NCBI RefSeq assembly: GCF_041435195.1 | Contig: NZ_CP108106.1 | Span: forward strand, 6,549,501-6,613,500 | Source: Streptomyces sp. NBC_00224 | GTDB taxonomy: Bacteria > Actinomycetota > Actinomycetes > Streptomycetales > Streptomycetaceae | Length of the DNA: 64,000 nt | Reading direction: 5' to 3' | In this document: positions 8,902-13,127 of the stretch, piece by piece | Position numbering within the stretch: position 1 is the first letter of the stretch | How the letters are laid out: every line of letters begins with the position of its first letter | Translations under genes and position numbers: made by a program | Notes under the pieces: model-generated | Told to the model about the DNA's origin: nothing | The model's input: the letters and a program-made list of their open reading frames with translations, nothing else | Database searches by the model: none

Positions 8902-8930
8902 TCCGTACGCCGGCGCCCCGCGGCCCCGGG

Positions 8931-9482
8931 TCAGGGGCGCCCGTACTCCGCGCCCCAGACCTCCACCGTGTCGGCCGCCCGGTCGAACGCCTCGACGCGC
9001 GACAGGAAGTCCGCGTTGTGGTCGGTGAGCAGCACCGGAAGCGTCGCCCCGCCGCGCCTGGAGGCGAGCAGCGCCTGCCCCTGCACGGTCCGGGGCAGCC
9101 CGAGCCACCGCACCGGCTGCTGCACCGTCCGTACGTCCTCGATCTGCTGCCACGGCATCGTGGAGGTGCTCAGGAAGCGGACTCGCCGCAGCCCGGCCCG
9201 GCTGACCCAGACGCCCATCCGCAGCATCCGCAGCGCCGACGCGATCACGGCGAGGGCGACCACCAGGACCGCGAGCGCCGCGGCCGGACCGCCGGTGAAC
9301 GCGATGATCACCGCGGCGAGCAGCACGAACGAGGCGAGGAGCAGCAGCACGGCGGCCGCTCCGACCCGCCAGGGGCCCGGCCGGTAGGGACGCCGCCAGC
9401 GGTCGTGGTCGTCGAAGGGCAGCGCGACGTCGTCGGCGGTCGCATCGAATGCGCGGTCGGCCGTCAGGAAGGGCAGGGGCAC
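8931..9482 (-). CDS. PH-domain-like membrane protein
   Basis: 183 residues. Two hydrophobic segments (about 38-58 and 63-85) precede a bacterial PH-like region of the bPH2/YdbT kind (about 90-165: MGVWVSRAGLRRVRF, STMPWQQIEDVRTVQ). GTG at 9482, with AGGA upstream. Convergent with the preceding gene across 29 bp. Function unknown; related proteins are membrane-associated and poorly characterised. Confidence 0.75.
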   Translation of the reverse strand: MPLPFLTADRAFDATADDVALPFDDHDRWRRPYRPGPWRVGAAAVLLLLASFVLLAAVIIAFTGGPAAALAVLVVALAVIASALRMLRMGVWVSRAGLRRVRFLSTSTMPWQQIEDVRTVQQPVRWLGLPRTVQGQALLASRRGGATLPVLLTDHNADFLSRVEAFDRAADTVEVWGAEYGRP

Positions 9483-9611
9483 GACTGATCCTCACTCACA
9501 AGCACGCTCGATTGGCTGTGCCCGGTGAGGCTACCCAGGAGGCAGTCGGACGACCACTTCCGGGGGGCCGTGGGGGTGTCTCCCACGCCATTCGGGCGAT
9601 GGGGGAGAGGG

Positions 9612-9848
9612 TCAGCGCCCGTCCGCCTGGGACTGCTGGGAGTGGCCCGGCGACTGGGCCGGTTCGAGCGCCGGCACGCCGAACAGGAGCGAGCCCGCGA
9701 GCCCGGCCACCACGGTGAGCCCGACCAGCGTACGGCCCACTATTCGGCCGGCGCCGGCACGCTCGCGCGGCGGCGGGGCGACATTGCTGCGGAAGCGGTC
9801 GGCCTCGGCGACGAACGTGAAGGGGACGGACTCCCGCCGGCGGAACAT
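9612..9848 (-). CDS. Small single-pass membrane protein, unknown function
   Basis: 78 residues starting MFRRRESVPFTFV. I prefer the ATG at 9848 because AAGGAG precedes it at the right distance, over the in-frame ATG 33 bp further upstream. One hydrophobic segment (about residues 34-54: GRTLVGLTVVAGLAGSLLFG) follows a basic N-terminus, and the tail is polar (QSQADGR). Not recognised beyond being Streptomyces-like. Confidence 0.55.
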   Translation of the reverse strand: MFRRRESVPFTFVAEADRFRSNVAPPPRERAGAGRIVGRTLVGLTVVAGLAGSLLFGVPALEPAQSPGHSQQSQADGR

Positions 9849-10031
9849 GAGGGGCTTCTCCTTGCCTCTGGGGTGGTGCACGGGCTGTGGTGGTGTGCTC
9901 GAACTGTGATGCGTCTACCGGTACAGACGTGCGGAGTTGAGGATTGGTGCCCGAATTCCCCGAATTGGCCGAAGAATTCTGTGACGGGTCGTCAGCGCGG
10001 GCCTGTCGGCGCCGGGCCACTGGAGCGGGCG

Positions 10032-10207
10032 CCGCCGTACCGGGTGGGCTGGTCGTACTACGAGGAGTCGGGCCGCTACCGGGAGCTCCAGCCGGTGTCG
10101 TACGTGCCGGGCGCCGAGGCCCAGCAGGAGCTACGGAGGAGCGCTGGGCGAAGCTCATGCCGCTCACCCGTGCCGCCTTCAACACCAACGGCCGCGTCGC
10201 CCCGTAA
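10032..10207 (+). pseudogene. thyX: Remnant of flavin-dependent thymidylate synthase ThyX
   Basis: Two blocks of unmistakable ThyX sequence survive. Block 1 (10032 to about 10130) reads YRVGWSYYEESGRYRELQPV then SYVPGAEAQQEL. Block 2 (10136-10207), in another frame, reads EERWAKLMPLTRAAFNTNGR then VAP and TAA. Intact ThyX is about 245 aa and has RHRVGWSYNEESGRYRE. Here the N-terminal ~90 residues are gone, about 20 are missing after YVPG, about 85 are missing between the blocks, and the frame shifts. The signature is also damaged: RHR has become YR and the conserved N is Y. Located directly before dapA, the normal thyX position in Streptomyces. The 180 bp upstream (9849-10031) contain no recognisable thyX sequence. 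Confidence 0.88.
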
Positions 10208-10308
10208 GTTGCCCGAATCGGCCCGTACGGGCACAGATGTGCGGATAGCCCGCGCAAAGTGTCCGTATTGCGGCGTTTCGTGAAGTTCATCTAGGCTGAT
10301 CAAACGGA

Positions 10309-10346
10309 CCCGGCACTGCTTGAACCCCCGAGCAGGCAGTGCCGGG
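10309..10346 (+). terminator. Perfect 11-bp hairpin between thyX remnant and dapA
   Basis: CCCGGCACTGC (10309-10319) pairs exactly with GCAGTGCCGGG (10336-10346) around a 16-base loop. Its place after the thyX stop suggests the old thyX terminator. It may alternatively act as a leader structure for dapA, whose start is 62 bp further on. No U tract. Confidence 0.55.
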
Positions 10347-10407
10347 CTCCCTCTGCCACGTCCCCCGAGGGGACACCGGGCGCTGAGCAGCGAGTAGCGT
10401 GTTACCC

Positions 10408-11307
10408 ATGGCTCCGATCTCCACTCCGCAGACCCCCTTCGGGCGGGTCCTCACCGCCATGGTCACGCCCTTCACGGCGGACGGCGCACTCGACCTCGAC
10501 GGCGCGCAGCGGCTCGCCGTCCACCTGGTCGACGCAGGTAACGACGGACTGATCGTCAACGGCACCACCGGCGAGTCCCCGACCACCAGCGACGCGGAGA
10601 AAGACCAGCTCGTACGGGCCGTACTGGAAGCGGTCGGAGACCGGGCCCACGTCGTAGCCGGCATCGGCACCAATGACACGCGTCACACCCTGGAGCTGGC
10701 CCGCACGGCCGAACGCTCCGGCGCACACGGCCTGCTCGCCGTCACGCCGTACTACAACAAGCCCCCTCAGGAGGGCCTGTACCGGCACTTCTCGGCCATC
10801 GCCGACGCCACCGAGCTCCCGGTGATGCTCTACGACATCCCCGGCCGCAGCGGTGTCCCGATCGACACCGAAACCCTGGTGCGCCTCGCCGAGCACCCGC
10901 GTATCGTCGCCAACAAGGACGCCAAGGGCGACCTCGGCCGTGCCAGCTGGGCCATCGCCCGCTCCGGCCTCGCCTGGTACTCCGGCGACGACATGCTCAA
11001 CCTGCCGCTGCTCTCGGTCGGCGCGGTCGGCTTCGTCTCCGTCGTCGGCCATGTGGTCACCCCCGAGCTGCGCGCGCTCCTCGACGCGTACCTCTCGGGC
11101 AACGTCCAGAAGGCCACCGAGATCCACCAGCGGCTGCTCCCGGTGTACACGGGCATGTTCCGTACCCAGGGAGTGATCACCACCAAGGCCGCGCTGGCCC
11201 TCCAGGGGCTGCCCGGCGGACCGCTGCGACTGCCGATGACGGAACTGACGGCGGAGGAAACCGCCCAGCTCAAGATCGATCTTGCGGCCGGCGGGGTACA
11301 GCTGTAG
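10408..11307 (+). CDS. dapA: 4-hydroxy-tetrahydrodipicolinate synthase
   Basis: Condenses pyruvate with aspartate semialdehyde, the entry step to diaminopimelate and lysine. 299-residue TIM barrel with the GTTGESPTT motif, the tyrosine region TPYYNKPPQEGLYRHF, and the Schiff-base lysine at about K170 in VANKDAKGD. I start at ATG 10408 (MAPISTPQTPFGRVL), the family start, rather than the in-frame GTG nine bases earlier. The gene stands alone behind the dead thyX and is followed by RNase J after 134 bp. Confidence 0.95.
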   Translation: MAPISTPQTPFGRVLTAMVTPFTADGALDLDGAQRLAVHLVDAGNDGLIVNGTTGESPTTSDAEKDQLVRAVLEAVGDRAHVVAGIGTNDTRHTLELARTAERSGAHGLLAVTPYYNKPPQEGLYRHFSAIADATELPVMLYDIPGRSGVPIDTETLVRLAEHPRIVANKDAKGDLGRASWAIARSGLAWYSGDDMLNLPLLSVGAVGFVSVVGHVVTPELRALLDAYLSGNVQKATEIHQRLLPVYTGMFRTQGVITTKAALALQGLPGGPLRLPMTELTAEETAQLKIDLAAGGVQL

Positions 11308-11441
11308 CCCCTGCGGGGTAGAGCTGTCACCACAGACTTCACAACTGAATACGAAGAACGAAACAGACAACAGCAAGTGCACGAATGTCATGCGCGCCAC
11401 GTGCCCTATAGGTACGTGGCGTGCGTGGTGAGGAGAGTCTT

Positions 11442-13127
11442 TTGAGTCATCCGCATCCCGAGCTCGGCACCCCGCCGCAGCTTCCCAAGAACGGCCTGCG
11501 CGTCACCCCGCTCGGCGGCCTCGGCGAAATCGGCCGGAACATGACGGTCTTCGAGTTCGGCGGCCGCCTGCTCATCGTCGACTGCGGCGTGCTCTTCCCC
11601 GAGGAGGAGCAGCCCGGCGTCGACCTGATCCTGCCGGACTTCAGCAGCATCAGGGACCGCCTCGACGACATCGAAGGCATCGTGCTCACGCACGGCCACG
11701 AGGACCACATCGGCGGCGTCCCGTACCTGCTCCGCGAGAAGCCGGACATCCCGCTGATCGGCTCCAAGCTGACCCTCGCGCTGATCGAGGCGAAGCTCCA
11801 GGAGCACCGCATCCGCCCGTACACGCTGGAGGTCGCCGAGGGCGACCGCGAGCGCCTGGGCCCCTTCGACTGCGAGTTCATCGCGGTCAACCACTCCATC
11901 CCGGACGCCCTCGCGGTCGCCATCCGCACCCCCGCGGGCCTGGCCGTCGCCACCGGCGACTTCAAGATGGACCAGCTCCCGCTGGACGGGCGCCTCACGG
12001 ACCTGCACGCCTTCGCCCGGCTGAGCGAGGAGGGCATCGACCTCCTCCTCTCCGACTCGACGAACGCCGAGGTCCCCGGCTTCGTACCGCCCGAGCGGGA
12101 CATCTCCAACGTCCTGCGCACGGTGTTCGCCAACGCCGACAAGCGGATCATCGTGGCCAGCTTCGCCAGCCATGTGCACCGCATCCAGCAGATCCTGGAC
12201 GCCGCCCACGAGTACGGCCGTCGGGTCGCCTTCGTCGGCCGCTCGATGGTCCGCAACATGGGCATCGCGCGCGACCTCGGCTATCTGAAGGTCCCCGCGG
12301 GCCTCGTCGTGGACGTCAAGACCCTCGACGACCTGCCGGACGACGAGGTCGTGCTGGTCTGCACCGGTTCGCAGGGCGAGCCCATGGCGGCCCTGTCCCG
12401 TATGGCCAACCGAGACCACCAGATCCGGATCGTCCAGGGCGACACCGTGATCCTGGCGTCGTCCCTGATCCCCGGCAACGAGAACGCGGTCTACCGCGTC
12501 ATCAACGGCCTGACCCGCTGGGGCGCGAACGTCGTCCACAAGGGCAACGCCAAGGTGCACGTCTCGGGCCACGCCTCGGCCGGCGAGCTGCTGTACTTCT
12601 ACAACATCTGCAAGCCGAAGAACCTGATGCCGGTCCACGGCGAATGGCGCCACCTGCGGGCGAACGCGGAGCTCGGAGCCCTCACCGGCGTCCCGAAGAA
12701 CCACATCGTCATCGCCGAGGACGGCGTGGTCGTCGACCTGGTCGACGGCGCCGCGAAGATCGTCGGCAAGGTCCAGGCGGGTTACGTGTACGTGGACGGC
12801 CTCTCGGTCGGCGACGTCACCGAGTCCTCGCTCAAGGACCGCCGCATCCTCGGGGACGAGGGCATCATCTCGGTCTTCGTGGTCGTCGACGCGTCGAGCG
12901 GAAAGATCGTCAGCGGTCCGACGATCCAGGCACGCGGCTCCGGCATCGAGGACTCGGCGTTCACGCCGGCGCTCTCGAAGGTCGAGGAGGCGCTCAACAA
13001 GTCCGCCCAGGACGGCGTAGTGGAGCCCCACCAGCTCCAGCAGCTGATCCGCCGCTCGGTCGGCAAGTGGGTCTCGGACACCTACCGTCGCCGCCCGATG
13101 ATCCTCCCGGTCGTCGTCGAGGTCTGA
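11442..13127 (+). CDS. rnj: Ribonuclease J
   Basis: Metallo-beta-lactamase/beta-CASP nuclease with 5'-3' exonuclease and endonuclease activity in RNA decay and rRNA maturation. 561 aa from a TTG start at 11442 (MSHPHPELG), chosen because GGAG sits six bases before it and the family begins here; an in-frame GTG lies 21 bp upstream. The metal-binding motif is intact: H84-G-H86-E-D88-H89. Further beta-CASP landmarks are DSTNAEVPG, CTGSQGEPMA and HVSGHASAGEL. It lies next to the rrn operon whose transcripts such enzymes process. Convergence of function is plausible but not shown here. Confidence 0.95.
   Translation: MSHPHPELGTPPQLPKNGLRVTPLGGLGEIGRNMTVFEFGGRLLIVDCGVLFPEEEQPGVDLILPDFSSIRDRLDDIEGIVLTHGHEDHIGGVPYLLREKPDIPLIGSKLTLALIEAKLQEHRIRPYTLEVAEGDRERLGPFDCEFIAVNHSIPDALAVAIRTPAGLAVATGDFKMDQLPLDGRLTDLHAFARLSEEGIDLLLSDSTNAEVPGFVPPERDISNVLRTVFANADKRIIVASFASHVHRIQQILDAAHEYGRRVAFVGRSMVRNMGIARDLGYLKVPAGLVVDVKTLDDLPDDEVVLVCTGSQGEPMAALSRMANRDHQIRIVQGDTVILASSLIPGNENAVYRVINGLTRWGANVVHKGNAKVHVSGHASAGELLYFYNICKPKNLMPVHGEWRHLRANAELGALTGVPKNHIVIAEDGVVVDLVDGAAKIVGKVQAGYVYVDGLSVGDVTESSLKDRRILGDEGIISVFVVVDASSGKIVSGPTIQARGSGIEDSAFTPALSKVEEALNKSAQDGVVEPHQLQQLIRRSVGKWVSDTYRRRPMILPVVVEV

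Follow-up and report, generated by a model that had tools for sequence, protein, structure and literature searches.

A thyX remnant in Streptomyces sp. NBC_00224 and the probable displacement of ThyX by a thyA–folA pair in the genus Streptomyces

Streptomyces sp. NBC_00224 carries, between dapB and dapA, a short stretch of DNA that is identified from its sequence as a thyX pseudogene in a preserved gene neighborhood. The remnant occupies positions 10039–10207 of the window, by which we mean the whole 64,000-nt stretch of NZ_CP108106.1 analyzed here; feature coordinates are those of the window unless another record is named, and the genome itself is labeled G000. Very probably, the pseudogene arose by deletion after a thyA–folA pair, presumably acquired by transfer, had made thyX redundant, and the same succession of gain and loss was repeated within Streptomyces. 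The characteristics of a displacement are present, in that the old gene is lost, an unrelated gene of the same function is present, and a close relative is still in the old state.

Structure of the thyX remnant

The original prediction placed a relic of thyX at its usual site, with two ThyX blocks lying in different frames. Both blocks are present, and the remnant sits where the intact thyX of related genomes ends. In a tblastn search with the ThyX of genome G015 as query, residues 71–116 (48% identity, E 2.7e-8) and residues 224–246 (83% identity, E 4.5e-8) were matched just upstream of dapA. The span initially given for the relic, 10032–10207, was correct at its end, which is the original stop codon, but not at its start, since 10032–10038 belong to the upstream flank. 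The loss is local, as had been stated, with both dapB and dapA whole (Table 1).

Alignment to an intact thyX of a relative had been suggested as a check; carried out against genome G227, it yielded three deletions together with their break-points. The 298-bp deletion begins 21 bp ahead of the start codon and ends within codon 93. The start codon is removed, and the remnant contains no open frame able to encode a full ThyX. The C-terminal piece lies in another frame because of the 238-bp loss. Altogether, 572 of the 741 thyX bases, or about 190 of 246 codons, are deleted relative to G227, which bears out the earlier estimate of roughly 190 lost codons. Where G227 has RHRVGWSYNEESGRY, G000 has YRVGWSYYEESGRY.

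Table 1 Features of the thyX locus in the window
Feature	Coordinates	Strand	Basis or remark
dapB, intact, 250 aa	7690..8442	+	ORF; Pfam DapB_N and DapB_C
Bacterial PH-domain protein, 183 aa, conserved at the locus	8931..9482	-	ORF; Pfam bPH_6, 22.1 bits (cut-off 22)
Small protein, 89 aa, beside the thyX slot	9612..9881	-	Distance to dapA tells a full from an empty slot
298-bp deletion junction	10038..10039	+	Alignment to L144 (G227); ACC shared
Remnant piece 1	10039..10113	+	G227 ThyX codons 93–118, catalytic-motif region, reads YRVGWSYYEESGRYRE; 3/75 bases differ
57-bp deletion junction, in frame	10113..10114	+	Alignment to L144 (G227); CCGA shared
Remnant piece 2	10114..10132	+	About codons 137–143; 19 bases identical to G227 2285–2303
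238-bp deletion junction, frame-shifting	10132..10133	+	Alignment to L144 (G227); no clear homology
Remnant piece 3	10133..10207	+	Codons 223–246 and original stop; frame differs from piece 1
thyX–dapA spacer, kept	10208..10410		198/203 bases same as G227
dapA, intact (298 aa with the start at 10411)	10411..11307	+	ORF
RNase J gene, intact	11421..13127	+	Pfam RNase J domains; first part used with dapA in the species-proxy tree

Substitutions relative to G227 amount to 10 in 167 remnant bases, 19 in 897 dapA bases and 5 in 203 spacer bases; within the third piece of the remnant, 6 of the 72 bases from 10136 onward differ. The codon differences in dapA comprise 13 silent and 4 changing ones. Constraint in the remnant appears relaxed: its 167 compared bases include at least five codons with a changed amino acid and the 897 bases of dapA only four, although these are small numbers. 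An assembly or sequencing error concealing a thyX that is whole in the cell is very unlikely, because the substitutions are scattered through the remnant and the flanks are colinear. Such an error would also have to produce three separate deletions, and the loss of thyX accompanies thyA–folA across the genus.

Comparison with the sister genome

A DNA search with 9990–11305 of the window matched 391 of the 392 genomes surveyed in the genus, and the best match after the genome itself was G227 (assembly 95% complete, 6% contamination). Its dapA is 98% identical to that of G000, and the two genomes group together in a tree of dapA and RNase J with 99% SH-aLRT support. G227 carries a whole thyX encoding 246 aa (L144 1876–2613), and searches of it found neither ThyA nor FolA. 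The next genome in the tree, G362, likewise has ThyX and no match to ThyA or FolA.

Identity to G227 reaches 97% across 1366 bp from 10135 on and 96% across 701 bp from 8204, farther upstream. Between these, just ahead of the remnant, a 1.1-kb segment (8926–10041) aligns to L144 with gaps at only 89%, and the local history may therefore include more than simple descent. Bounded on both sides by sequence 96–97% identical to G227, this segment is perhaps a recombined stretch.

A thyA–folA pair in the same genome

Either ThyA or a second ThyX had been expected elsewhere in the genome, with replacement of the FAD-dependent enzyme as the consequence. That expectation covered neither the link with folA, nor the whole thyX in G227, nor recurrence in the genus, nor a plasmid-borne pair. 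A search of the 9,182,200 bases of G000 (9.18 Mb, 99.98% complete) supported replacement, returning one full ThyA and no Thy1/ThyX match of any kind; the alternative of a second ThyX was thereby rejected. The sole ThyA lies at C1:968650–969432 (E 2.6e-126), approximately 5.6 Mb from the relic, and its intact gene is overlapped at the end by 4 bases of folA (thyA 1498–2301 and folA 962–1501 in L001). The protein is a full-length match to Pfam PF00303, scores 483.9 bits against the NCBIfam thymidylate synthase equivalog (cut-off 327), and aligns over residues 6–267 with the thymidylate synthase 3qj7, while FolA is a full dihydrofolate reductase (DHFR) match. ThyA releases dihydrofolate and so requires a reductase, which ThyX does not. 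In G000, ThyA appears to make dTMP in place of ThyX.

Across 18 kb around thyA, matches in G227 reach just 66–69% identity. A segment downstream of folA (L146 5002–7505) is found in G362, G075 and G216 at 79–86%. In G000 the end of folA is overlapped by an ORF that contains an Imm35 immunity-protein domain (L146 7558–8334), and the true start of this ORF is probably later.

These observations suggest a sequence of events in which the thyA–folA pair would have entered the G000 lineage by transfer, ThyA would convert dUMP to dTMP, and FolA would reduce the dihydrofolate that ThyA releases. Redundant from then on, thyX would have been lost through deletions, of which two lie at short repeats, with the region upstream of dapA retained. 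The gain of thyA probably preceded the loss of thyX, and genomes holding both enzymes would represent intermediates of a process repeated in Streptomyces.

Distribution of ThyX, ThyA and FolA in the genus

The survey covered 392 Streptomyces genomes, drawn evenly. A Thy1 match was found in 368 of them, that of G272 (E 9.7e-4) falling below the family cut-off; among the 24 genomes with no match, 20 were named directly and four (G379, G409, G431 and G441) were deduced by elimination. ThyA was matched at E ≤1e-60 in 36 genomes, 34 of which lie below 1e-120 and are referred to here as the main kind, and two near 3e-62. Main-kind ThyA occurs without intact ThyX in 22 genomes and with ThyX in 12, ThyX stands alone in 355, and neither was recorded in 3 (Fisher p 2e-24, relatedness ignored). 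When only the 380 genomes of good quality (≥90% complete, ≤5% contaminated) are considered, 20 lack ThyX, and every one of these has a ThyA, of the main kind in 19 and divergent in G282.

FolA accompanies ThyA almost throughout. It was matched in 33 of the 34 genomes with main-kind ThyA (10/10 and 23/24), and the exception, G276, keeps ThyX. Two FolA matches look broken, in G281 (two pieces in different frames) and in G283 (an internal stop). G283 lacks ThyX despite its broken FolA match, which either counts against a strict need for FolA or reflects a sequence error. Among 137 tested genomes without main-kind ThyA (81 and 56), FolA was found in two, namely G282 and, as a fragment, G023. The G023 fragment (L202 7896–8063) has 56 residues 84% identical to G000 FolA in a genome that kept ThyX, and it is perhaps what remains of a lost thyA–folA pair.

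G282, which had counted as a genome with neither enzyme at the 1e-60 threshold, was removed from that class when a divergent thyA–folA pair was found (L292 3949–5312). Its proteins are 31% and 34% identical to the ThyA and FolA of G000, with Pfam E-values of 3.8e-60 and 8.3e-39, and this genome, which has no ThyX, is a separate case of replacement, by a ThyA of a different lineage. ThyA matches about as strong as that of G282 occur in G252 and G351, where ThyX is retained. After this closer look at G282, only G001 (79% complete) and G431 (91% complete, 8% contaminated) have neither enzyme, and both are read as incomplete genomes. The reverse order of events, in which thyX was lost first and growth relied on salvaged thymidine until thyA–folA arrived, is improbable: both enzymes coexist in the 12 genomes noted above, and the only enzyme-less genomes are these two.

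Two further observations concern ThyX itself. According to Pfam, applied here to G032 alone, an intein with an HNH endonuclease splits the ThyX active-site motif of that genome (L079 2–1273). A G032-like pattern of two Thy1 matches, with best E-values of 1e-22 to 1e-24, occurs in 15 of the 392 genomes.

The thyX slot in other genomes

The dapA-anchored locus could be retrieved from 54 of 56 genomes (29/30 and 25/26, with a single strong dapA match each). The slot was empty in 25 of these loci, representing the 22 ThyA-only genomes together with G282, G051 and G359. By tblastn, the small protein beside the slot was found in all 25 (24 besides G000) and in all five thyX-bearing loci listed, but not in G084. 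The gap between the small protein and dapA measures 310–571 nt in 24 of the 25 empty loci, compared with 1046–1224 nt in the five that bear thyX. In G046 the slot (L072) measures 1346 nt with no thyX found, and something else may be inserted there.

Relics as well kept as that of G000 were sought by tblastn in the 22 ThyA-only genomes, and just weak C-terminal traces were recovered. Such traces were seen in G012 (E 0.1 and 0.01) and G264 (E 0.52), and another in G359 (E 0.035), which is not one of the 22; their assignment to thyX is carried by position, the E-values alone being insufficient. G051 has an empty slot and a ThyX elsewhere in the genome, and G359, whose slot holds no thyX beyond the trace, has a strong Thy1 match in its genome. 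G084 presents a different arrangement (L082, L201 and L287), with a divergent ThyX, approximately 23% identical to the usual one, in the slot beside dapA on the opposite strand, as though one ThyX had been exchanged there for another.

Recurrence was assessed on a quick tree of dapA and part of the RNase J gene with 56 rows (34 ThyA genomes and 22 others), a sample thus weighted towards ThyA. On this tree the native-thyX state changes 14 times, 9 of these changes being forced by well-supported branches, with G084 scored as having lost native thyX; ThyA presence changes 12 times, 8 of them forced. A kinship-aware test of 8 pairs gave means of 5.3 concordant, 0.1 opposed and 2.6 showing no difference, with a weak median p of 0.06. 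Statistics that respect kinship are suggestive; greater weight falls on the rule seen in good-quality genomes and on the comparison with the sister genome.

Origin and mobility of thyA–folA

In a ThyA tree of 49 rows, which included 31 of the 34 loci, the Streptomyces proteins group as a single clade with 96% SH-aLRT support. The nearest relative of G000 ThyA is that of G051, at 94% identity, whereas the DapA proteins of the two genomes are only 85% identical, as would be expected from transfer. Neighborhoods could be parsed for 28 of the 34 thyA loci: blocks of genes are common to groups of 5, 4 and 2 genomes, and 17 loci share none, although some of these 17 have one or two gene families in common. 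The variety of neighborhoods rules out a single chromosomal home for the pair. ThyA identity is correlated with DapA identity (rho 0.41); this correlation and the three groups with a common neighborhood mean that vertical inheritance is mixed in.

In Streptomyces xanthii (G162), thyA–folA resides on a 361,615-bp linear plasmid (NZ_CP061282.1, C2; also L290 and L293) beside primase genes. The thyX slot of the chromosome is empty, and the only recognized synthase is borne on the plasmid because the genome yielded neither ThyX nor another ThyA. On this gene content, the plasmid should be essential. The plasmid p1 of Streptomyces fungicidicus (926,728 bp) also carries thyA–folA. Among ThyA-matching plasmid records, 6 of 952 reach 80% identity, compared with none of 4068 phage records, and no donor was identified among the plasmid and phage records.

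The same data bear on the view that an ancestral Streptomyces possessed both thyX and thyA–folA, and that differential loss, with no recent transfer, produced the present distribution. The single ThyA clade, the neighborhoods common within three genome groups and the identity correlation all speak for it. We nevertheless regard it as unlikely, given that 17 of the 28 parsed loci share no block, that the S. xanthii pair is plasmid-borne, that the ThyA proteins of G000 and G051 are much closer than their DapA proteins, and that this ThyA is absent from 358 of the 392 genomes. Acquisition by transfer followed by loss of thyX remains the preferred reading.

The gene run ahead of thyA

Along the strand of thyA in G000, the pair is preceded, in this order, by genes for a fatty-acyl-AMP ligase-like protein, a carrier domain, a transglutaminase-like protein (a weak match, its 20.5 bits lying below the cut-off of 23), an acyl-CoA ligase, an MFS exporter, a thioesterase and a flavin enzyme, the last terminating 31 bases ahead of thyA. 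The flavin enzyme resembles the hydroxylase half of salicylyl-CoA 5-hydroxylase/oxidoreductase, and lies outside that family because its score of 242.8 bits falls below the cut-off of 1078. Farther out, on the opposite strand, are a P450 and an anthranilate-synthase-like enzyme. The run spans L146 9483–17972 and L203 718–6415 (C1, about 0.97–0.98 Mb), and one acyl ligase in it has a weak match to a diazotase family.

From its predicted gene content, the run looks like a biosynthetic cluster, which raises the idea of self-resistance. As a general explanation self-resistance was rejected, since, apart from weak MFS and ligase matches (MFS near 30% identity in G051, G264 and G376; ligase at 27% in G012), the G000 surroundings were not found around thyA at the remaining 33 loci. 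With looser clustering, the G000 MFS shares a family with a thyA neighbor in G047, G164 and G243. The position of thyA–folA at the end of this run also lends some support to the proposal that the role of G000 ThyA is confined to secondary metabolism and that dTMP comes from an unrecognized source. We consider this hardly credible, because the ThyA lies above equivalog cut-offs and aligns along its length with solved enzymes, and no other ThyX or ThyA match exists in G000.

A bolder extension of the transfer reading, which we offer tentatively and hold to be rather doubtful, is that thyA–folA acts as a mobile target-replacement module: the target of the run's product might be ThyX or the folate cycle, and bacteria that take up the pair would lose their sensitivity and afterwards shed thyX. 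Diazaquinomycin A, which is made by Streptomyces, is reported to inhibit thymidylate synthase (PMC4071591); nothing in the present data links the cluster to this compound. If target replacement were true, a plasmid bearing the pair, as in S. xanthii, would become indispensable.

Relation to known systems and significance

PMC5954106 cites Stern et al. (2010) for displacement between ThyX and ThyA, in either direction, by lateral transfer. The present case resembles that account in the takeover of dTMP synthesis by a non-homologous enzyme and in a sporadic distribution of gain and loss. It differs in that the lost gene of G000 can still be read at the syntenic site, the nearest genome found retains it intact, and the event recurs within a single genus. 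According to PMC1971073, most bacteria without a recognizable DHFR use ThyX. Streptomyces conforms, as the ThyX-only genomes tested lack a FolA match and the ThyA genomes have one, with the difference that here thyA and folA adjoin and appear to move together.

PMC5954106 also presents PolB as a second Streptomyces ThyX that functions in polyoxin synthesis; it accounts for the extra ThyX matches in some genomes. PolB is no housekeeping replacement, unlike the situation in G000, whose genome is without any ThyX. Mycobacteria that have thyA and thyX together are the subject of PMC3352284; 12 Streptomyces genomes likewise hold both enzymes, whereas G000 has lost one of the two. Within the open-access literature, as represented by titles and the beginnings of abstracts, no thyX pseudogene or ThyX-to-ThyA swap within Streptomyces was found. 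Displacement of ThyX by ThyA is thus already known, and what is new is its recurrence within one genus, the near-constant coupling to folA, and a sole synthase borne on a plasmid.

The locus offers a well-resolved case of replacement of an essential enzyme, with the intact state in a close relative, the state with both enzymes in 12 genomes, and remains or empty slots elsewhere. In Streptomyces, folA is nearly always found with thyA, and an essential function can come to reside on a plasmid. Because Streptomyces is tractable, it can be tested directly which event came first, whether FolA is required and whether the plasmid is indispensable.
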